Virus record (IMG/VR): IMGVR_UViG_3300046656_000274
Span: 1 to 20,218 of that record
Length of the DNA stretch: 20,218 nt
DNA from: a virus
Direction: 5' to 3' (one strand)
The notes under the pieces are model-generated. The model had not been told where the DNA came from. It worked only from the letters and a program-made list of their open reading frames with translations, and ran no database searches. Positions 4,001 to 18,490 of this stretch are shown here, piece by piece (position 1 is the stretch's first letter; each line of letters begins with the position of its first letter). A program made the position numbers and the translations under genes.

Positions 4001-4468
4001 CTATTTGGATATTAAATATGCTATTATATCCCTACCGTCTTGCTTTACTTGACCATCTACCGTGGCTATTCCTTCATTAATAAGAGTGGATATAAATTTT
4101 TCGAGCTTTTCCATAGCCAAATCACCAAAAACCACCTGTCTTCCCTTTAACATCATGGTGATTTTTGTTTTGAACCCCTTATTTAGGAACTCACGAGCAT
4201 GTGAAATTTTTGTGTTCAGGTCGTTAATATCTATATTCGGGGATAATTGTATTTCTTTAACCTTGTGCGTTCGCTTCTGGGCTCGTTGTTGTCGTTCTTT
4301 TTGTTTTTGTTCGTATTTAAGTTTCCCAGCATCGGCTATTCTATAAATATTACTTTTAGCGTTAATCATTATCAAGTCTTTGCCCGACGCCTTCGCCATT
4401 GATCTTGCCTGTTCTAAACTAACATTTCCTACCAATTTACCATCTTCTCCAATTAAAGTTATATTCAT
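4001..4468 (-). CDS. infC: Translation initiation factor IF-3
   Basis: IF-3 binds the 30S subunit, keeps it apart from 50S and checks the start codon and initiator tRNA. The 155 residues align along their length with bacterial IF-3: an N-domain (LIGEDGKLVGNVSLEQARSM, then KASGKDLIMINAKS), the hallmark YEQKQKERQQ linker helix at 52-61, the KVKEIQLSPNIDINDLNTKI strand-helix at 69-88, AREFLNKG at 91-98 and the GR of the C-domain at 109-110. Compared with the roughly 180-residue bacterial factor it lacks about the first 20 residues, and the usual PPVCR loop is reduced to SNIYR. An in-frame TAA directly precedes the ATG at 4468, so no longer start is possible. AGGAG lies 14 nt upstream, rather far. 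It is the last gene of the block, 21 nt after the sigma-like gene. The gene uses a plain ATG and not the rare AUU of host infC, so the classic IF-3 autoregulation should not apply. Confidence 0.92.
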   Translation of the reverse strand: MNITLIGEDGKLVGNVSLEQARSMAKASGKDLIMINAKSNIYRIADAGKLKYEQKQKERQQRAQKRTHKVKEIQLSPNIDINDLNTKISHAREFLNKGFKTKITMMLKGRQVVFGDLAMEKLEKFISTLINEGIATVDGQVKQDGRDIIAYLISK

Positions 4469-6151: not shown

Positions 6152-7237
6152 TTAACTATCATTTTCCTCTACTGCGACACTAATATTATTTGCTTTTGCT
6201 TCCTTAACTCTTTCAAGAACCGATAATTGGAGTTTTTCATCTAATAGGGCATCCGCTATTGCATCTTTGCCATTATACTTGACGCCATCCAATTCATAGG
6301 TTTTATTATTTGGGCGTTGAATTACACCATATCTACAACCTAACTCGCGCATTTCTACATTCTTGTGAGTTATTCCTTTTGCAAAATCTATTGCAACTTC
6401 GGCAGTTCTAAAAGGTGGTGCTTTTTTATTTTTATCTATACGCGCCTTAATGTGCAAACCAGAAGTTTGCCCATCTTCTCCTTCAATTTTCGAGTCCTTT
6501 CCTGCCATCTTTGCTAAATGAACCATCTGCGCACAAGCATGTTTCAGTGTTGCGCCGCCTGGACTTTCTTCTGGGTTTCCATACATTACGCCAGGCTTCA
6601 TTCTTAATTGATTTATACATATTAAACTAACACCAGTTTGAGATAGGATCGGGGTTATTTTTCTCAATTCTGGCGGTAAAAATCTCGCCATCAATGCCAT
6701 ATTTGCTTTGCCTACCTCACTCGTTTCTTCTTGCGGTGGTTGCATTGCCGCGATACTATCTATAACTATTAGCCCTAAACCAGTTCCGCCAGTTTCAAGC
6801 TCCAAATCTAATATGCCCTTTTTAACCTTGGGCGATCCAGGCTTTGCACCAGGAGCACCAACAAGACGCTCGAACACCTTTATACCACTATTTTCACGAT
6901 AAACTAAAAGTCTATCTAAATCAACTCCCAATCCTCTTGTCCAATTAGCGTCAAAAGTAAATTCACAATCTATGAACATTGCCCAATTATTTGGATCTTT
7001 CTTTTGCCATTCCGCTATTGTTGTCAAACTTAAAAATGTTTTTCCACTACTCTCGAACCCAGCATATTGAATGACATGTCCTCGAGGAATACCCCAAATA
7101 CCCAAAGCGTCGTCCAACAAATAACTGCCCGTGCTTATAACATCACTATAAGTGGTCATGCTTTCATTTCCAGCAAAAAGTCCTTCATCGCCGTGTTGCT
7201 TTTCTATCTGATCCCATATTTGTTGCATTTTCTTCAT
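6152..7237 (-). CDS. recA: RecA/UvsX-family recombinase
   Basis: RecA forms filaments on single-stranded DNA and carries out strand exchange, which in phages feeds recombination-dependent replication and repair. Seen here: Walker A GFESSGKT at 60-67, the catalytic E92 in FIDCE, Walker B LIVID at 156-160, and the L2 DNA-binding segment INQLRMKPGVMYGNPEESPG at 208-227 with its conserved glutamine. The length, 361 residues, is normal. Between E92 and the Walker B aspartate it is about 20 residues longer than E. coli RecA; the extra piece is rich in Gly, Pro and Lys (GAPGAKPGSPKVKKG). The ATG overlaps the dnaJ stop by one base (TAATG) behind AAGGAG. SSB-like and UvsY-like genes nearby complete the usual recombinase set. 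The sequence looks closer to bacterial RecA than to T4 UvsX. Confidence 0.95.
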   Translation of the reverse strand: MKKMQQIWDQIEKQHGDEGLFAGNESMTTYSDVISTGSYLLDDALGIWGIPRGHVIQYAGFESSGKTFLSLTTIAEWQKKDPNNWAMFIDCEFTFDANWTRGLGVDLDRLLVYRENSGIKVFERLVGAPGAKPGSPKVKKGILDLELETGGTGLGLIVIDSIAAMQPPQEETSEVGKANMALMARFLPPELRKITPILSQTGVSLICINQLRMKPGVMYGNPEESPGGATLKHACAQMVHLAKMAGKDSKIEGEDGQTSGLHIKARIDKNKKAPPFRTAEVAIDFAKGITHKNVEMRELGCRYGVIQRPNNKTYELDGVKYNGKDAIADALLDEKLQLSVLERVKEAKANNISVAVEENDS

Positions 7238-8265
7238 TAATTTTTCTCCTTAATTTTCATTAATAACTCTTTTTCTTCGTCTGATATTTGTTTAGGGATA
7301 TTTATTTTTACATTTACTAAATGATCTCCCCTAACATGATCTTTAAAAATACCTTTATTTTTTATTTTAATAATATTATTTGGTTGGGTGCCTGGTGGAA
7401 TATTTAGTTTCTCAACGCCATGAGTAGTTTCCACATCAATAGCTGTTCCCAAAATTGCATCTAAATAACTAATTGTTTCCTCGCTTTGTATATTTACTCC
7501 CGCTCTTTTAAATTTAGGGTGGGGTCGTATAACTAACGCTATATATAGGTCTCCATTTTCTCCACCATATTCGCTTGGCAAACCTTTTCCAGAAAGTCGC
7601 ATGGTGGTGTTTTCGTCTATACCAGCAGGGATAGTTATTTTTATATTATCCTCTTTACTAATTTCTCCGTTTCCATTACAAGATTGGCATTTGTCTATAA
7701 TTTGAAAACCACGCCCACCACAGCTATTACAACTATTTACAACTTGCATGAAGCCCTGTTTATAGCCTATTTTGCCCGAACCATTACAGACATTACAGGT
7801 TTTTACTGAATTGTCGTCTTTTGCCCCTTTACCATTACAATTTTTGCAAACTGCTGGATAATACATTTTGAAGGTTTTTACACTGCCCTTCACGGCTTCC
7901 ATGAAATTTATTGTTATTGTTTTCTTTAAGTCTTCACCGCGAACTTTTCTTGATCTTGCCGAACCAAAAATATCACCAAAATCAAAACCCCCGCCAAAAC
8001 CCATATTTCTTAAAATTTCATCAAAATTACTTGCCTGTGCTGTATTTTTTGGATTTGTGTTTCCGTATAAGTCATATTGTTTTCGTTTATCCGCATCAGA
8101 TAAAACTTCGTATGCAGCAGAGATTTCTTTAAACTTTTCTTCTGCTACTTTATTTCCTTGGTTCTTGTCGGGATGGTACTCCATTGCAAGTTTTCTATAA
8201 GCATTTTTTATTTCTTTATCATTTGCGGTTTTCTCTACCCCAAGAACTTTATATAAGTCGTTCAT
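7237..8265 (-). CDS. dnaJ: Chaperone DnaJ (type I, Hsp40)
   Basis: DnaJ delivers clients to Hsp70 (DnaK) and stimulates its ATPase. All class-A parts are present in 342 residues: J-domain with HPD at 31-33, a Gly/Phe segment at about 88-101, four CxxCxGxG zinc motifs (C140, C157, C179, C193), and the C-terminal client-binding domains with [15 protein letters not shown]. No dnaK or grpE is seen in the window, so it should work with host DnaK. It is embedded between ruvC (4-nt ATGA overlap) and recA (1-nt overlap), within the DNA-processing genes. That favours a role in loading or taking apart replication or recombination complexes, as host DnaJ does for lambda and P1, but capsid folding is equally possible. 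Confidence 0.95.
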
Positions 8266-10935: not shown

Positions 10936-13900
10936 CTACCCAGTATTTTCTATTCTATCTAACACCAATGTATTAGTGTTGTTCCAATTATTAACTCGGC
11001 ACACCGCTCTAATTGGTTTTCCTATGTCCAAAATTTCCCTATAACGCACCCATTGATCGGGCCATGCTGTGAGTTGGGCAGTGTCTCCCTTATCATCAGT
11101 TATAGTAAATTTGGCGTATGTTCTTCCTTTATTTTTACCTTTCTTTAACTTATCTTGTTTTACATCAGAAATTATAGTTTCCACTTTAATTGTAAGACCA
11201 TCTGGCATTGCTTTTAATTTAGAAAGTTCAGTTGTGCCCTTTCCAGTAAAAAACCCGCCGTATAGATCATTAATACTTCCAGAAACCGCTTCGCCCAGAG
11301 TATCCATTTCTGCTTTTATAACTTCTGGTTTAGTCCATTCGTCTAATAAATCAGGCTTATCAAAAGTAAATCCATCAAGCCTTCTGTGTTCCTCAATGCC
11401 CAGTTTTTCATTCTCTGCTCCAAATTTATTCGCCTTTGTTCTAATATCGGCATAATAATTAAAAGCAGATCTTCTGGTTATTTTAAGTTCATCAAAACAG
11501 CCTGCTTGTGCTAATGGCTGAATAACATCTTTTCTAACAACACTTGACTTTGTTCTATATAAGAAATCAGGAAATGAAACGAATTTATTTTTATTTCTTG
11601 TTTCTATAATATTAGAAACTGCTGACGAACCAACGCCCTTAATTGCTTCAAGACCAGCGATTATAGCATTGTTTCCTACCATTGAGAAGGTAGCCGCACT
11701 CTTATTAATACTCGGAGGAAATATCTTTATACCTAATTTTTTACATTCCTTTTTATATTCTCTTATATTAGCATCGCGATCTGGTGAAGAACCTTTATTA
11801 TTTTCTGCTTCTAAAACGGCAGTCATAAAAGCGGCGGGGAAATGATGCTTATAATACGCCGTGTGGTAGCCATTGATACTATATGCGATAGAATGACTTT
11901 TATTGAAACCATATTTTGAGTAGGGTAAAATAATATTAGTCCATATATCTTGTGCGTGTTCTTTTTTAATATCATTTTTGATGGCATCATTAATAAACTT
12001 TTCTTCAACGCCCTTAACTAAATGAGCACCCTTTTCTTTTAATTTAGTGATTTTTCTTAATTGATCTGCCTCATTTAAGTCCCATCCCGCAACATCTTTT
12101 GCGAGTGTCATTAATTGTTCTTCATACATACACACGCCAAGAGTTGATCCTAATGAGTTTTCCAAACATTTATATTTTAATTCTAATTTTTCTTTATTGT
12201 CCCTTCTTGATATAAATAAATCTCGTGGCGTGTATTTTTCACCATTTTCTTTTTGACCTGCGCTGGGTCTTCCTAATGCATTAACGATACTCAACTCTTC
12301 TATGCTTTTTGGCTTAACTTGCTTACATAAGGTCTTCATATGAGCACTTTCCATCTGGAACACGCACATTGTTTTACCTTTTGATATATCCTCCCAAACT
12401 GCTGCGTCGTCAAGGGGAATATCTTCTGGCTCTGGACAAGATAAACCAAGCTTTCTTATATTCTCAATTGTGTTTTTTATAATACGAAGATGTTCTAAAC
12501 CTAAAAGATCCATCTTAATTAGGCCCATTTCTTCACAACGATTTTTCTCATATTGAACAGAAACATCGCCGTTTTTATCAAGTCTTAATGGAACATAAGT
12601 TGGCAAATCTACATCGCTTATAACAATTCCAGCAGCGTGTGTGGCATATGCTTTTTCCAAACCTACCAATTTTCTTCCGTATTCTTCAAGCAGCGGGTAT
12701 TTTTTACAATACTCTCCAAACTCTTTCGATGCGGCTAAAACTTCATCGATAGTTTTTGCTGTTGCTGGAATAGTATCGGTGATTTTCTTTGCTATTTCAA
12801 AGGCTTTACTTTTGTCTCCACCCAACTCCAATGACCGCGCGATGTCCGTTATTACTACTTTTGGTGTCATTCTGCTCAAATTAGAGACATGTGCTACTTT
12901 CTCTTTGCCATATTTGTTGGTGATATACTCCATGACCCATTCGCGACCATCGGGACTAATATCAGTGTCTATATCTGGGAATGCTTTCTTTTCTTTGTTA
13001 TGAAAACGCTCAAATAATAATCCGTATTTTATTGGATCTACTGCGTGAATATCCAAAAGATTTCCAACAAGAGATCCTGCCACAGATCCGCGGCCGGGGC
13101 CAATAAATATCTTGTTTTCTTTTGCTTTTTTAATGAAGTCGGACACTATCAACATATATGAGCAAAAATTGTGTTGTTCTAGGACTTTTAATTCGTCCAT
13201 CATTCTGTCTATGTATTTCTTCTTACTCTCGCCCTTTAAGTGCCCAAATTTTTTCTTGAACCCCTGAATACAACGAAATCTCATAAAAGCGTGATCTTCT
13301 GGAATGTTATTTTTTATATTTTTTGCTTTCCAAGTTAAGAATTTATTATAGTCATCTTCAACTTTTGTATCAAATTTTGGAAATCTAACGCCCTTTGGAT
13401 CTAAATAAACCGGATCCTCGCATTGGTTTGCTATTCTAATTGTATTATCGCAAACTTCATCGGCAAACTCTTTATCGAAATATTTTACGAAATGAGCATG
13501 AATTTCTTCATAATCTTTCATATAAAATTCTTCTACTTCATATCGATGACGCATTTTATCGCTTAATGGTGCTTTTGAACTAATCGCCATAAGCATATCG
13601 TGTGCTTTTGCATCTTCTTTATTAAGATAATGAATATCAGTAGTAGCGACCACCCTAATACCAAGTATTTTTCCAACTTCTCTTAATTTGTTGTTGATGT
13701 GGTTTTGATCTACTATTACTATTTGCTTACCATTTTTTAATTTGAATTCGCCAGTCTTTTTGTCTCGTTCAAATATTTTTAGATTGTGTGGTTGAACTTC
13801 TAAATATAAATTATCTCCAAATATTCCTTTCAGTCTTTGAGCAGTTTTTAGAACATTGTCGTGGCAAGCACCCTCTAACCACTCACCATCTTCTCCATGA

Positions 13901-14361
13901 ACAAACATTTGTCTTGAAATTAAACCCGAACCACAAGCAGTTAAACAAATAATTCCCTCATTATACTTTTCGAGCAAGTTCCAATCAATACGAGGGAATA
14001 CTTTACCCATAACCGCCACATACTCGAAATTGAGAAATCCTTCATAATTTAATTGTAGAAGGTTTCTATAACCTTTTTCATTAGAGGCTATTAATACTAT
14101 ATGACGGCGTTTTTGTTTTGGTTCCTTAACATCATCAACGAAATATGCTTCTATTGCTGGCAAAAACTTTACACCATATTTAACTGATGCTTTTCTTGCG
14201 TCAAACCAAGACGCTGCGGTCCCGTGATCGGAAATCGCAAGAGCAGGTTGTCCCAACTCTGATGCCTTCTTAAACATATCATAAACATTTGTCATCGCAT
14301 CAAGCATAGAACCTTGGGCTGTATGACAATGAAGCCCAACTATGTTTTTTTCTTTATTCAT
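10936..14361 (-). CDS. dnaE: DNA polymerase III alpha subunit (C-family replicase)
   Basis: This is the main replicative polymerase. The 1141 residues match a complete DnaE. The N-terminal PHP domain keeps all nine metal ligands of proofreading-active forms such as Mycobacterium DnaE1: H11, H13, D21, H46, E71, H87, C143, D242, H244. The polymerase core has GPGRGSVAGSL at 421-431, PDIDTD with D463 and D465, and KMDLLGLEHL with the third catalytic aspartate D618. Helix-hairpin-helix DNA binding (IAGLEAIKGVGSSAVSNI) and a C-terminal OB-fold (about 1060-1115) follow. No separate epsilon exonuclease is seen, so the PHP domain may do the proofreading. It begins three bases after the preceding gene and ends with TAG. 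Most tailed phages with their own replicase use family A or B enzymes, so a C-family one is less usual. Confidence 0.96.
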   Translation of the reverse strand: MNKEKNIVGLHCHTAQGSMLDAMTNVYDMFKKASELGQPALAISDHGTAASWFDARKASVKYGVKFLPAIEAYFVDDVKEPKQKRRHIVLIASNEKGYRNLLQLNYEGFLNFEYVAVMGKVFPRIDWNLLEKYNEGIICLTACGSGLISRQMFVHGEDGEWLEGACHDNVLKTAQRLKGIFGDNLYLEVQPHNLKIFERDKKTGEFKLKNGKQIVIVDQNHINNKLREVGKILGIRVVATTDIHYLNKEDAKAHDMLMAISSKAPLSDKMRHRYEVEEFYMKDYEEIHAHFVKYFDKEFADEVCDNTIRIANQCEDPVYLDPKGVRFPKFDTKVEDDYNKFLTWKAKNIKNNIPEDHAFMRFRCIQGFKKKFGHLKGESKKKYIDRMMDELKVLEQHNFCSYMLIVSDFIKKAKENKIFIGPGRGSVAGSLVGNLLDIHAVDPIKYGLLFERFHNKEKKAFPDIDTDISPDGREWVMEYITNKYGKEKVAHVSNLSRMTPKVVITDIARSLELGGDKSKAFEIAKKITDTIPATAKTIDEVLAASKEFGEYCKKYPLLEEYGRKLVGLEKAYATHAAGIVISDVDLPTYVPLRLDKNGDVSVQYEKNRCEEMGLIKMDLLGLEHLRIIKNTIENIRKLGLSCPEPEDIPLDDAAVWEDISKGKTMCVFQMESAHMKTLCKQVKPKSIEELSIVNALGRPSAGQKENGEKYTPRDLFISRRDNKEKLELKYKCLENSLGSTLGVCMYEEQLMTLAKDVAGWDLNEADQLRKITKLKEKGAHLVKGVEEKFINDAIKNDIKKEHAQDIWTNIILPYSKYGFNKSHSIAYSINGYHTAYYKHHFPAAFMTAVLEAENNKGSSPDRDANIREYKKECKKLGIKIFPPSINKSAATFSMVGNNAIIAGLEAIKGVGSSAVSNIIETRNKNKFVSFPDFLYRTKSSVVRKDVIQPLAQAGCFDELKITRRSAFNYYADIRTKANKFGAENEKLGIEEHRRLDGFTFDKPDLLDEWTKPEVIKAEMDTLGEAVSGSINDLYGGFFTGKGTTELSKLKAMPDGLTIKVETIISDVKQDKLKKGKNKGRTYAKFTITDDKGDTAQLTAWPDQWVRYREILDIGKPIRAVCRVNNWNNTNTLVLDRIENTG
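13345..13373 (-). promoter_or_regulatory. Possible promoter inside dnaE
   Basis: TTGATA (13373-13368), 17 bases, TATAAT (13350-13345) on the minus strand: five of six and six of six matches with ideal spacing. It is within coding sequence and could be chance in AT-rich DNA, or it could boost the genes downstream of dnaE. Confidence 0.25.
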
Positions 14362-14364
14362 TAT

Positions 14365-14703
14365 TTATAACTCTATTTCTATTTCCAGTGTATCTGAAAT
14401 CCATTGAGCAAGTTTTTCCTCTATTGTGTTTTTCCAATTAATATCATCTTTCGGAACACACAATTTTAACAATCTTGTGTTGGCTCTTACTTCGATTTTA
14501 GTATTTTCATCTTTGCCTATCTTAACTAACATATTTGATTTAAATAATGTTAGGGCACTTGATAGGCTGCCTTGTGCCCCAAAAGATAGAGCCATGCCTT
14601 CAATCAAATCCGAATTAATGCGACAAGGTAAATCATACTCAAATGAAGAACATTTATCACAACAAAATGATTGCTTTATAGAAACTATATCTTTAAAAAA
14701 CAT
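14365..14703 (-). CDS. Small protein with Cys cluster, unknown
   Basis: A 112-residue protein of unknown function. The N-terminal part has CCDKC at 14-18 and another cysteine at 27 (DLPCRIN), which could bind zinc or be structural. The middle (MALSFGAQGSLSSALTLFKS) is helical with small residues, and the end is acidic with W-I-S-D. It overlaps the previous gene by one base (TAATG) and lies three bases before the DNA polymerase gene. Both small genes between trigger factor and polymerase are clearly part of the same transcript. I see no homology to name. Confidence 0.65.
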   Translation of the reverse strand: MFFKDIVSIKQSFCCDKCSSFEYDLPCRINSDLIEGMALSFGAQGSLSSALTLFKSNMLVKIGKDENTKIEVRANTRLLKLCVPKDDINWKNTIEEKLAQWISDTLEIEIEL

Positions 14704-14921
14704 TATTTCTTAATGAAGATAGACAAACCTACATCAACCTCGCCTACTTGGTGATCCAATAAGGCTTTCATAACATCACCCATATCACAATCTGCCGCGG
14801 ACACTTCATCGACTACGGCTTCCAGCACTAATTTGAGTTTTTCTGTATCTTTTGCCTTTTTAACTGAAAAGTTCAAAATTTTAAATCCCGCTATTGATTG
14901 CTTCTTGCTGTTTTCTTCCAT
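14703..14921 (-). CDS. Small acidic protein, unknown
   Basis: A 72-residue protein. The frame is open back to an ATG at 14948, but AAGGAG lies just before the ATG at 14921, and starting there avoids an overlap with the trigger factor gene, so 14921 is preferred. The sequence alternates strand-like and helical parts (GFKILNFSVKKAKDTEKLKL then LEAVVDEVSAAD) and ends in VGEVDVGLSIFIKK. The size and pattern would suit a small alpha/beta domain. Nothing identifies its role; it is encoded between trigger factor and a Cys-containing protein, ten bases after the former. Confidence 0.65.
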   Translation of the reverse strand: MEENSKKQSIAGFKILNFSVKKAKDTEKLKLVLEAVVDEVSAADCDMGDVMKALLDHQVGEVDVGLSIFIKK

Positions 14922-14931
14922 TTCTTTCTCC

Positions 14932-16185
14932 TTAATCTTTTTTCGCACTATTTATTATAAAATCTACTACTTTTTGGTTTCTCAAAATGCCCATAAAAGC
15001 ATCCATTTGATTTGAATTATATAAATTACTAACCAAATCGTCTTTATTTATATTGTTTTGATTAGCATAATTATTTAATAACTTGTCTAATTCATCTGGT
15101 GTTATTTCTATTTCGCTTTCCGCCTCATAAATGTTGTCTAATAATATTGCTCTTTTAACATTTGATCTTGCTACACCAGTCGTGGAGTTGATTGCCTGTT
15201 CAGTTAAATTTTTATTATTTCCGACGAGCCTTTTTACTTCATTCTCTATCATTGATTTTGGAACTTCAAATGTATTCAGTTCTAATAATTTTGATAGTAT
15301 CTGTCCTTCTAAATTATTTTTGGTGATTTTGTCTATATAATCACCTACATCTAAATTAATCTTGTCTAACATTTCTTCTACTGATGAATAACCAGCCATT
15401 AGTGCCAAATCATTATCCACTTCTGCCAAGTTTGTCTCTACTATCGAGTGTAATTTGATTTTAAAAGTTGCTTCTTTTCCTGCCAAGTTGGGGGCATTAT
15501 AACTAACTGGAAATACAATTTTTATATTTCTTTCTTCATTAACCAACATTCCAACTATCTGATCTTCAAATCCAGCGACAAACTTGTTATTTCCTAACTT
15601 ATCTAATGAATATCCATTTGCTTTTCCACCTTCAAATTGAACTCCGTCAATAAAACCTTCAAAATCTATAACTATTGCGTCCCCTAATTGAGCTGGTCGT
15701 TCAGTTATTTGTTTTCTTTCGGCAAATTGTGTTCTGTGTTCTAATAGTTTATTTTGAACTAACTTTTCCTTGTCATATGTCGGAACCTTTAATTCAAGAC
15801 CCTTATAACCTTCTGGTTTAAATTTTGGTAGAACTTCAACCAATAGACTGACAAAATAAGAATTGTCTGGGTTAAATTTTCCTACGGTTTCATTGCTGTT
15901 TTCAAAATTTGGAGCACCTAATGGGTTTATATTAAAATCTCTTAATGCCTTTGTATAAAATTCAGATATAATTCCTTGTGCTACTAAATTTTTTGCCTTG
16001 TGTCCATAAAACTGCTTTAATACTTTTGTTGATGCCTTGCCTTTTCTAAAACCATTTAAATTAGTTTCTTTTTTTATGCCATTAAAAAATTCATTAAATT
16101 TCTTATCCACACTATTTGATGAAACAAAAATTGATATTCTTTTTTGAACTTGACTTAAATCTTCAACATTTACTGTATCTTCCAT
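14932..16185 (-). CDS. tig: Trigger factor (ribosome-associated chaperone / prolyl isomerase)
   Basis: Trigger factor docks at the ribosome exit tunnel and shields new chains; it also carries a prolyl cis-trans isomerase domain. All three domains are present in 417 residues (432 in E. coli). The N-terminal ribosome-binding domain carries the signature GFRKGK at 45-50. The FKBP-like domain at about 160-245 includes GDAIVIDFEGFIDGVQFEGG, VAGFEDQIVGM and PVSYNAPNLAGKEATFKIKL. The C-terminal helical domain starts near 255. The proline that usually follows GFRxGKxP is missing (GKAST). The start follows a TAGGAG site in which the previous gene's stop is embedded. It could help fold capsid proteins made in bulk. 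Identification is secure from the signature and full-length domain order. Confidence 0.96.
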   Translation of the reverse strand: MEDTVNVEDLSQVQKRISIFVSSNSVDKKFNEFFNGIKKETNLNGFRKGKASTKVLKQFYGHKAKNLVAQGIISEFYTKALRDFNINPLGAPNFENSNETVGKFNPDNSYFVSLLVEVLPKFKPEGYKGLELKVPTYDKEKLVQNKLLEHRTQFAERKQITERPAQLGDAIVIDFEGFIDGVQFEGGKANGYSLDKLGNNKFVAGFEDQIVGMLVNEERNIKIVFPVSYNAPNLAGKEATFKIKLHSIVETNLAEVDNDLALMAGYSSVEEMLDKINLDVGDYIDKITKNNLEGQILSKLLELNTFEVPKSMIENEVKRLVGNNKNLTEQAINSTTGVARSNVKRAILLDNIYEAESEIEITPDELDKLLNNYANQNNINKDDLVSNLYNSNQMDAFMGILRNQKVVDFIINSAKKD

Positions 16186-16193
16186 TCTTTCTC

Positions 16194-16862
16194 CTATCTA
16201 TTTGCGTATGATTTATTCATTATTTCTTCTCTATATCTTTCGAGCCATTTTTCAAAAGAGCCACCCTGCGGAGTGCCATTATATAACGCATTGTCAAATT
16301 TATCGTTTAATAATTGGTATTTATCAGTTCTTCTCTTTAACTCTTCTAATTTATCTAAATATAACTTATATATTGTGTCCTTGTTTGGTGCCAATTGACG
16401 CAAGGTAGTATCATCTCCATCAGTTTTGGTTATTGGTTGTTCAGGACTGATATTAATTGCCTTATAATATTGTAAAAAAGCCCATTTTCGTGCCCATCTA
16501 ATTAAATCATTTTGAGTTGGGTTTGACTTGGAACTCAAAACCTGTTCTTCTTGGGCAACATCTTGTTCCAAAATATTAATAAATTGCCCAAAATTTAATT
16601 TAGAAACTGGTGATATTGATTTATTTTCAGCAGGGGCACCAGGCAGTTCTATTGCCATTTCTGCTTGCCTTACATTATACACCAATTCGCTAAATTTATC
16701 AATAGAATTTTGATCTACTTTAAAATCTAATATTCTTTTTTCGCTCGCTATGGCTTTAATTATAGTCGTTTTATCTTTAATTTCCGCCTTTTTCAGCCTC
16801 TTTGTATATTTAACTATATTTTTTCGCGATAGTATTTTTTGCTCTTTTACATAGTTATTCAT
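16194..16862 (-). CDS. Helical basic protein, unknown
   Basis: A 222-residue protein with no recognised family. Its first 50 residues are strongly basic and helical (KILSRKNIVKYTKRLKKAEI). A proline-containing linker (ELPGAPAENKSISPVSK) follows. The rest is helical with W-A-R-K-W-A-F-L-Q-Y-Y (121-131) and a C-terminal FEKWLERYREEIMNK. There are no cysteines. It starts one base after the sigma factor gene and ends eight bases before trigger factor. The basic N-terminus suggests nucleic acid or ribosome contact, but this is guesswork. Confidence 0.75.
   Translation of the reverse strand: MNNYVKEQKILSRKNIVKYTKRLKKAEIKDKTTIIKAIASEKRILDFKVDQNSIDKFSELVYNVRQAEMAIELPGAPAENKSISPVSKLNFGQFINILEQDVAQEEQVLSSKSNPTQNDLIRWARKWAFLQYYKAINISPEQPITKTDGDDTTLRQLAPNKDTIYKLYLDKLEELKRRTDKYQLLNDKFDNALYNGTPQGGSFEKWLERYREEIMNKSYANR
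16674..16702 (-). promoter_or_regulatory. Possible internal promoter upstream of trigger factor
   Basis: TTGATA (16702-16697), 17 bases, TATAAT (16679-16674) on the minus strand, about 490 bases upstream of the trigger factor start and inside the preceding gene. It resembles the site inside dnaE. Either could be a chance match. Confidence 0.25.
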
Positions 16863-16863
16863 A

Positions 16864-17691
16864 TTATTTGCCCATTATCTCCATAAATTTTTTGTCATCT
16901 TTTAATTTCTTTAATTTAGAGTTGGCACTTGAATTTGACATCCCTATTTCTTTGGCTGCACGGCTGACTGAATAATCCTTCATAACGATCAAGTTTAATA
17001 ATTTTGCTACGCTTGGATCACTTTCTGCGATCCATTCTGATATGTCGTGATCTAAAATTATACCATTTTCATCGGCATTACTTTTATTATCAACAAAAGA
17101 ACTAAAATCCCCATCTTCACTGCCGTCCGTTGGATCTACTGGATGATAATAAGCATCAAGATATACTTCCGAAAAACCCAATGAAACTTTTCTGGCACTG
17201 GTTATTGAGGCATTACACTTTTCGCAAATTCTATCAGATGTGTTTTCTTCATCTGACAAAACTAAATTAAAAGAATTTCCACAACCACATAGATAATTAT
17301 AAGAATTTATTTTTAAGAGTGTAGCGTTTTTGGAAGAATGGCTTTGATCTCTAATTTCGTTTATTAACCTTCTATTAACACGCATTTGAATAAAAGTAGA
17401 TAGTTTAACATTTCTTCTTGGATCGAACTTTGGTGTTCCTTCTATGATGCGCATTGATATATGTTGTTTTGTATCTTCTGGACTAAATCCTTTAAGTTTG
17501 TATTTAGAAGCCAAGAAGCCTACTAGTTTATTTAATTTTTTAATAACCTCGTCATATCCTTTTCCAGTTTTAGTATTGACATACATTTCCGTGTCATATA
17601 CCTGAACTTTTCCAGAAAATCCTACATATTCTTTTGTCTTTGGGTCTAAAAATATTTCTAACTCTTCTTTATTGCTATTAATTGTTCTCAT
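16864..17691 (-). CDS. gp55-like phage sigma factor with inserted zinc ribbon
   Basis: The protein should direct RNA polymerase to phage promoters. Residues about 50-117 match sigma-70 region 2, ending in KFDPRRNVKLSTFIQMRVNR then RLINEIRDQS, the core-binding and -10-reading helices. Residues about 228-268 form a region-4-like HTH (SVSRAAKEIGMSNSSANSKL). Between them lies a zinc ribbon (C135-x-C137 and C156-x2-C159), which is not part of ordinary sigma factors, and an acidic linker rich in Asp and Ser. T4 gp55, the late sigma factor, is also a reduced region-2 protein, so a late-gene role is a fair guess. The start at 17691 is seven bases after the nuclease gene with a TAGGAG site. The sigma call is firm; the timing is inference. 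Confidence 0.85.
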   Translation of the reverse strand: MRTINSNKEELEIFLDPKTKEYVGFSGKVQVYDTEMYVNTKTGKGYDEVIKKLNKLVGFLASKYKLKGFSPEDTKQHISMRIIEGTPKFDPRRNVKLSTFIQMRVNRRLINEIRDQSHSSKNATLLKINSYNYLCGCGNSFNLVLSDEENTSDRICEKCNASITSARKVSLGFSEVYLDAYYHPVDPTDGSEDGDFSSFVDNKSNADENGIILDHDISEWIAESDPSVAKLLNLIVMKDYSVSRAAKEIGMSNSSANSKLKKLKDDKKFMEIMGK

Positions 17692-17698
17692 TTTTCTC

Positions 17699-18490
17699 CT
17701 ACCACGCTTTATGGGCTGGACATATTTCTTTGAAATCGCACCAATTACATAATCCAGTTGGAACAGGAACCCATTGATTTTCTGTCTTTATCTTATTGGC
17801 ATAACTAATTATTTCTTTTTCAACTTTCTTTAAGTCTTCCAAATTAAAATCATATGCTTTTGGTTTAGAGCCGTGCCTTAATAACACATATGAGGCTTTA
17901 AATTTATTCAAGTCTTTGTATTCTTCTTTTAACCAGAGCCCATATATTAGAAGTTGAAATGGCTCTAAATATTTAACATTTTTGGTAGTCTTATAATCTA
18001 CTATTTCAAAAGTTCCATCTTTTAATATATCAAGCCTGTCTATGAAGCCTCTTATCAAGATATTGTCCCCTACCTTAAAATTGAATGGAATTTCAACACC
18101 TTTTACCATCGGCATACTATTTTCAGAGACATACTTTAAATAATCCATTAATAGTTCTTTTGCTTCTTCTACTATTTTTGGGTTTAAGTTTTCAAATTCC
18201 TCTTCTTTCTTTGCTTCGGCGAACGAAAAGGACATCAGTTTATTTAATGTTTTTCCTTTAAGCCCATCTTTCATATATGTTTCGTGAAATATTTCAAGAG
18301 CACGATGGCATAAATTTCCGAGAAAAAAGTGATCGTATTCCTTTCGTGGCTGTTTATCTATATAGGTGAAATAGTACTTACGAGGGCATTGATCAAATGT
18401 CTTCATAGAACTTGCTGATAATTTAATTAATTCTATGTTATGAAGTTCTTTATCACCGCTATTATCATTGTCTATAATTTTTAATGTCAT
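17699..18490 (-). CDS. RecB/Cas4-like PD-(D/E)XK nuclease with Fe-S cysteines
   Basis: A 263-residue nuclease of the PDDEXK_1 / RecB family. Visible parts are SASSMKTFDQCPRKYYFTYI at 25-44, GNLCHRALE with H62, GFIDRLD with D151, the catalytic VDYKT with D165 and K167, and QLLIYGL at 179-185. Four cysteines (C35 and C248-x2-C251-x5-C257) sit exactly where AddB and Cas4 hold an iron-sulfur cluster. It should be a DNA exonuclease that makes single-stranded ends for the recombinase or degrades host DNA. There is no adjacent CRISPR array or Cas1, so a CRISPR Cas4 role is not supported. It has AAGGATTTAA before the ATG and starts 12 bases after the structural-like gene. Confidence 0.9.
   Translation of the reverse strand: MTLKIIDNDNSGDKELHNIELIKLSASSMKTFDQCPRKYYFTYIDKQPRKEYDHFFLGNLCHRALEIFHETYMKDGLKGKTLNKLMSFSFAEAKKEEEFENLNPKIVEEAKELLMDYLKYVSENSMPMVKGVEIPFNFKVGDNILIRGFIDRLDILKDGTFEIVDYKTTKNVKYLEPFQLLIYGLWLKEEYKDLNKFKASYVLLRHGSKPKAYDFNLEDLKKVEKEIISYANKIKTENQWVPVPTGLCNWCDFKEICPAHKAW

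Follow-up and report, generated by a model that had tools for sequence, protein, structure and literature searches.

The stretch of DNA analysed here, which we call the window, is a 20,218-base virus record in IMG/VR, and all of the window features given below lie on its minus strand. At 14932..16185 it carries a gene for a protein of 417 amino acids, which begins with an ATG and is preceded by a Shine-Dalgarno-like AGGAG (16191..16195), read from the sequence, that lies 5 bases 5' of the start codon and overlaps the stop of the preceding gene. The protein comprises a ribosome-binding domain (Trigger_N, aa 1-138, 15772..16185; Pfam match at aa 5-138, E 1e-24), an FKBP-type prolyl isomerase domain (aa 163-245, 15451..15699; FKBP_C, E 2.9e-12) and an arm domain (Trigger_C, aa 269-411, 14953..15381; E 9.3e-17), all above the curated Pfam cut-offs and in the order required of the trigger factor (TF) Tig. 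The NCBIfam tig equivalog TIGR00115 gives it 297 bits where 180 are required, and the ribosome signature GFRxGK is satisfied by GFRKGK at aa 45-50 (16036..16053), where sequence and alignment place the putative ribosome-docking loop. An AlphaFold2 model of the protein (pLDDT 85.3, pTM 0.62) finds E. coli TF, 1w26, as its top PDB match in Foldseek (TM 0.74 by query length, E 8e-24); the model is least confident where the chain approaches and enters the docking loop, with residues 40-42 scoring below 50. A complete trigger factor with the TF fold is thereby confirmed, as an earlier note on this DNA had claimed from the three domains and the GFRKGK motif, and the profile search that it had proposed recovered all three domains.

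Upstream of TF lie the genes for a 222-aa protein with no function assigned (16194..16862), whose synteny is kept within the window's clade, a protein matching the profile of sigma-70 region 2 (16864..17691), and a PD-(D/E)XK/Cas4-like exonuclease (17699..18490), whose place upstream of TF is conserved in the wider clade. Downstream, at a distance of 570 bases, is dnaE (10936..14361), encoding a DNA polymerase III alpha identified by profile match, which is the anchor of the conserved block. Two small genes stand in between: one for a 72-aa protein (14703..14921), whose start, re-read at 14921, has a GGAG of its own and whose YqeY match is below cut-off, and one for a 112-aa protein without assigned function (14365..14703), recognised as an open reading frame and by synteny. 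Further profile matches identify a DnaJ co-chaperone that co-occurs with TF (7237..8265), a UvsX/RecA-like recombinase (6152..7237) and translation initiation factor IF-3 (4001..4468). Neither clpP nor clpX was found beside TF among the window genes examined. Considering the gene content (DnaE, UvsX/RecA, a phage RuvC, SSB, primase, exonuclease and sigma factors) and the synteny with a terminase-bearing contig, the window is phage DNA, as the earlier note had held, and TF is a phage gene and not a stray piece of host chromosome.

Distribution and ancestry of the phage gene

The terminase-bearing relative is a viral contig of 51.8 kb, fetched by a dnaE query, whose gene set and order are those of the window and which carries genes for a terminase large subunit, a head-maturation-type protease and SbcC/SbcD-like proteins. 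The same order recurs on further contigs of 28, 34, 63 and 105 kb, and the TFs of these five syntenic viral contigs are 48-53% identical to that of the window; the top bacterial TFs are 27-34% identical to it. Neither a single-sequence TF query of viral contigs nor a narrow TF alignment run against genome contigs gave matches, but broader alignments succeeded. A scan of viral contigs with a TF alignment yielded 34 loci, and the order exonuclease-TF-DnaE was seen in 13 loci besides the five close ones, at TF identities of 23-31%.

Since this first scan had used the TF motif, a second was anchored on dnaE and blind to TF. Its best 80 dnaE loci comprise 38 with TF, 12 relatives without it, five truncated where the contig ends and 25 distant loci without TF; in the 38, TF lies upstream of dnaE on the same strand, 523-3361 bases away, on contigs of up to 371,675 bases. 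Whole-record searches did not find TF in the 12 TF-less relatives. The 38 TF-bearing dnaE loci and the fetched loci of the window's clade showed no clpP or clpX near TF, and the lone weak ClpP-like match falls in a TF-less locus. The terminase family phrog_675 is present in 25 of the 30 records tested, TF-bearing and TF-less. A TF position conserved in this manner on contigs with phage hallmark genes marks TF as a gene of tailed phages. No cultured member was found among the rows listed, where the closest isolates reach at most 32% identity in DnaE and 25% in terminase.

The contigs also hold several peculiarities of their own. The 371,675-base contig (G048) has two TF genes, at 93445-93837 and 186913-187338. 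Behind dnaE on the 105-kb sister contig is an IS605 OrfB/Cas12f-like gene (L147:7193-8785, plus strand), and on another sister contig of the window a ThiF/E1-like gene (L005:13449-14084, minus strand) overlaps that of a JAB-like peptidase (14081-14689, minus strand), whose JAB match is below cut-off. Two sister phages have an extra gene between dnaJ and recA, missing there in the window (L018:19075-19839 and L020:19053-19772, both plus strand), which bears a GSSGG motif and presumably encodes a trypsin-type serine protease. At least nine loci (L178, L180, L182, L186, L192, L198, L199, L209 and L129) have the polymerase gene itself split at one place, near model column 794/795, and insert-like interruptions occur within single dnaE frames at L131, L189, L200, L201 and L021, a pattern that points to inteins or introns recurring at conserved sites of the polymerase. 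The terminase large subunit was matched as two pieces in open frames of 916-1337 aa on seven contigs (G052, G069, G070, G015, G019, G042 and G047), as expected of inteins.

On a dnaE tree, the presence of TF requires two changes, where shuffling gives a mean of 13.7 (68 rows: 50 with TF, 15 without and three unknown). For this tree 93 sequences were prepared and 25 removed by hand as fragments, near-duplicates or distant rows; of those removed, only L202 has TF. A TF-less clade of 11 rows exists on it, and TF is thus dispensable for this kind of phage. Pairwise identities of TF and DnaE are strongly correlated (Mantel 0.91 over 49 loci, with 0 of 2000 permutations as high). In a careful TF tree, 18 phage rows and 25 bacterial rows fall on opposite sides of a 100/99.8 branch, a clean split that arises partly because the tree, which took 18 of the 51 phage rows, omitted L132 and L179 (phage) and L141 (bacterial). 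In a quick TF tree of 89 rows the phage label needs three changes and not one: L132 stands among bacterial rows and L179 pairs with L141, both on long branches. The bacterial sampling covered seven named phyla (Pseudomonadota, Bacillota, Campylobacterota, Bdellovibrionota, Myxococcota, Fusobacteriota and Actinomycetota), with Bacteroidota, Cyanobacteriota, Patescibacteria and others not knowingly included. The earlier note had expected that phylogeny could identify the host; the phage TFs branch outside the sampled bacteria, so the tree puts no name to one. What we have is a genuine, vertically inherited phage TF, a fixed member of the replication block in a broad group of large tailed phages: an old, syntenic gene and no sporadic pick-up.

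It could be argued that the window comes from a host chromosome, or holds a recently captured host gene, and is mislabelled as virus. Indeed, TF, IF-3, DnaJ, RecA and DnaE are all host-type functions, and virus-labelled records with a bacterial tig do exist, such as the tig-clpP-clpX arrangement in an 'Acinetobacter phage' record, with clpP and/or clpX adjoining tig in others. However, the window is syntenic with phage contigs bearing terminase, head protease and SbcCD-like genes, even the top bacterial TFs are only distantly similar, and the phage block has no clpP or clpX next to TF. The earlier note had taken a tree position inside one host species, together with host synteny, as the sign of a chromosomal segment, and the careful tree instead sets the phage TFs apart from all 25 bacterial rows by one branch. 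Synteny, terminase and TF tree rule this reading out, and we give it next to no credence.

A GenBank phage collection gave 30 TF matches; among the 10 regions inspected, six have clpP and/or clpX by tig, and in four no clp gene was seen. The phage-labelled records in which a bacterial tig is accompanied by clpP and/or clpX (CAKLQH020000005.1, OR844993.1 and faecal 'Bacteriophage sp.' records MT83xxxx) are likely bacterial chromosome contamination; CAKLQF020000005.1 was grouped with them solely by its twin TF match.

Conservation of the docking loop and the isomerase pocket

Across 36 dnaE-anchored TFs, the loop residues G45, R47 and G49 are invariant (36/36 each), K50 is kept in 32 (with R in two) and F46 in 31, the remaining five having Y, N or S in its place. 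As FRK plays a direct part in TF docking, the minority of phage TFs in which F46 is replaced may dock differently. In 30 wider-clade TFs the loop is the best conserved of the stretches compared: mean pairwise identity is 0.61 there, against 0.46 for the N domain, 0.43 for the isomerase domain and 0.37 for the C domain. Trigger_N was matched in all 42 phage TFs scanned and Trigger_C in 41, but FKBP_C in only 26.

The isomerase domain was followed at 10 positions, which we take to line the pocket of the E. coli enzyme. All 10 are canonical in 89 of the 96 comparison rows labelled bacterial; the window protein likewise has 10 of 10 and its clade 9-10, whereas phage rows outside this clade retain 0-7, with the exception of L132, which has nine. 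A model of a wider-clade TF, L166 (pLDDT 85.7), still has E. coli TF as its best match, with 1w26 first by E-value and the ribosome-bound 2vrh at TM 0.68. These conservation counts and this model together indicate that the pocket decays while the overall shape and the docking surface persist. We infer that isomerase activity has been lost in relatives of the window. With a near-invariant loop and a pocket eroded in most relatives, selection seems to act on docking and holding, and ribosome docking by the phage TFs is, at the level of sequence, well supported as a prediction.

Phage TF shares with bacterial Tig (PF05697-PF00254-PF05698, TIGR00115; 1w26) its three domains, docking loop and fold. 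The isomerase pocket is likewise common to Tig and the window's clade, yet is eroded in most phage relatives; the phage gene stands beside dnaE where the bacterial one belongs to tig-clpP-clpX, and the phage proteins, which sit on a branch of their own, share no more than 34% identity with the bacterial Tigs found.

Partners and a proposed role at the host ribosome

The partner that tracks TF is DnaJ, and not IF-3. Among the best 80 dnaE loci, DnaJ was found in 33 of the 38 TF-bearing loci or their records, and above cut-off in none of the 12 TF-less ones, although sub-cut-off matches occur in two TF-less records. Four of the five TF-bearing loci without DnaJ end before its usual place, and the fifth, L175, has no DnaJ there. 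The records lacking both TF and DnaJ are a single clade and include near-duplicate contigs (L154/L167, L158/L164 and L189/L208); the link between the two genes is essentially one phylogenetic event. DnaK was not found in 25 records, so the phage DnaJ would have to rely on that of the host. As for IF-3, it was present in 6/6 records of the window's clade, but among the wider relatives it occurs in 10 of the 26 records with TF and 2 of the 9 without, and the earlier note's idea that IF-3 and TF cover translation from both ends finds no support in these wider relatives.

TF-less records may have taken another route. All five TF-less records tested encode a GroEL-type chaperonin, four of them in duplicate, and such a gene is present in 3 of the 26 TF-bearing records, a comparison in which the TF-less records are a single clade and the contigs are fragments (the contigs concerned are G039, G042, G036, G030 and G031, and G009, G047 and G048). 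TF and GroEL look complementary on these counts, and a swap of chaperone route is possible.

The explanation that we favour, and consider probable, is that phage TF docks on the host ribosome via its loop and chaperones nascent phage proteins. Judging from gene packing and ribosome-binding sites, TF would be expressed with the polymerase operon. By analogy with bacterial TF, the GFRKGK loop would then dock on uL23 at the exit tunnel of the host ribosome, where the phage protein may compete with or supplement host TF, and nascent phage proteins, the clients suggested by the same analogy, would be held until folded or passed to DnaK. Hand-over to host DnaK could proceed through the phage-encoded DnaJ. 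Phage TF can probably do without prolyl isomerisation: the pattern of pocket residues is plain to see, and a loss of activity would follow from it.

The position of TF next to dnaE would fit a role in replication as well, and TF could instead be a ribosome-independent assembly chaperone or holdase, encoded with its clients, namely bulk or hard-to-fold phage proteins such as the 1141-aa polymerase, the replisome or virion parts. Its fixed place in the replication block and the near-universal retention of the client-binding Trigger_C would agree with this, as would the presence among the structure matches of 3gty, whose title reads 'Promiscuous Substrate Recognition in Folding and Assembly Activities'. 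Nevertheless, a free chaperone does not predict a near-invariant ribosome loop, and we consider this reading unlikely.

Somewhat less likely still is a competitor or shut-off factor, which would exclude host TF, SRP or nascent-chain enzymes from the exit tunnel and so weaken host protein biogenesis, or would hide nascent phage proteins from host surveillance. TF is non-essential in E. coli, and little would be gained by blocking it. A pure blocker has no need of the client-binding C domain, which is kept, and the co-occurrence with DnaJ indicates folding. On the other hand, retention of the docking loop as the isomerase pocket erodes would fit a competitor, and large phages have been proposed to intercept host translation (available part of PMC7162821). 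Lastly, the notion of a neutral hitch-hiker kept through linkage to dnaE, to which the 11 dnaE rows of one clade that do without TF might lend some colour, is barely credible for a gene that is full length, has retained Trigger_N and Trigger_C over deep divergence, and keeps a near-invariant loop and a constant location.

Returning to docking and chaperoning as the preferred role, we can sketch a broader scenario, although only tentatively, as we hold it to be somewhat less probable than not. A phage exit-tunnel chaperone would have arisen once, long ago, and become a core gene of this large-phage group, giving phage-specialised ribosomes early in infection; docking and holding would be under selection whilst prolyl isomerisation decays, DnaJ would serve as a phage-run front end to host DnaK, and the TF-less clade would have swapped TF and DnaJ for doubled GroEL-type chaperonins.

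Phages that commandeer chaperones have a precedent in Rki of RB43, which, as far as the available part of PMC3486835 describes it, is like phage TF a phage-encoded chaperone component and hijacks a host chaperone; unlike TF it is not ribosome-docked, being a J-domain protein that recruits DnaK and stabilises sigma-32. Huge and jumbo phages carry genes for IF1, IF3, elongation factors, peptide deformylase, DnaJ, DnaK or HSP60, and the available portions of the papers reporting them contain no trigger factor, 'trigger' being a verb or part of a reference title there (PMC7162821, PMC7824862, PMC12619734). Within similarly partial texts, Southern Ocean viral proteins are described as having no detectable TF analogs (PMC8407431), and TF is used merely as a solubility tag (PMC12697855). 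No report of a phage trigger factor was found in the literature searched, which was largely without subscription papers and without preprints. Initiation factors, elongation factors, deformylase, DnaJ and GroEL were already known from phages, and an exit-tunnel chaperone appears to be a missing step among them. As a natural series in which the loop is kept and the pocket lost, the phage TFs offer an evolutionary test of the old question as to which activity of TF is the important one, and the pattern of TF and DnaJ versus GroEL offers a comparative handle on the folding route that large phages need to control. Earlier members of the phage TF family may already sit unrecognised in phrog_26774, an unnamed family of 'unknown function', which is matched by 42/42 of the phage TFs scanned, and by the window protein over nearly its full length.
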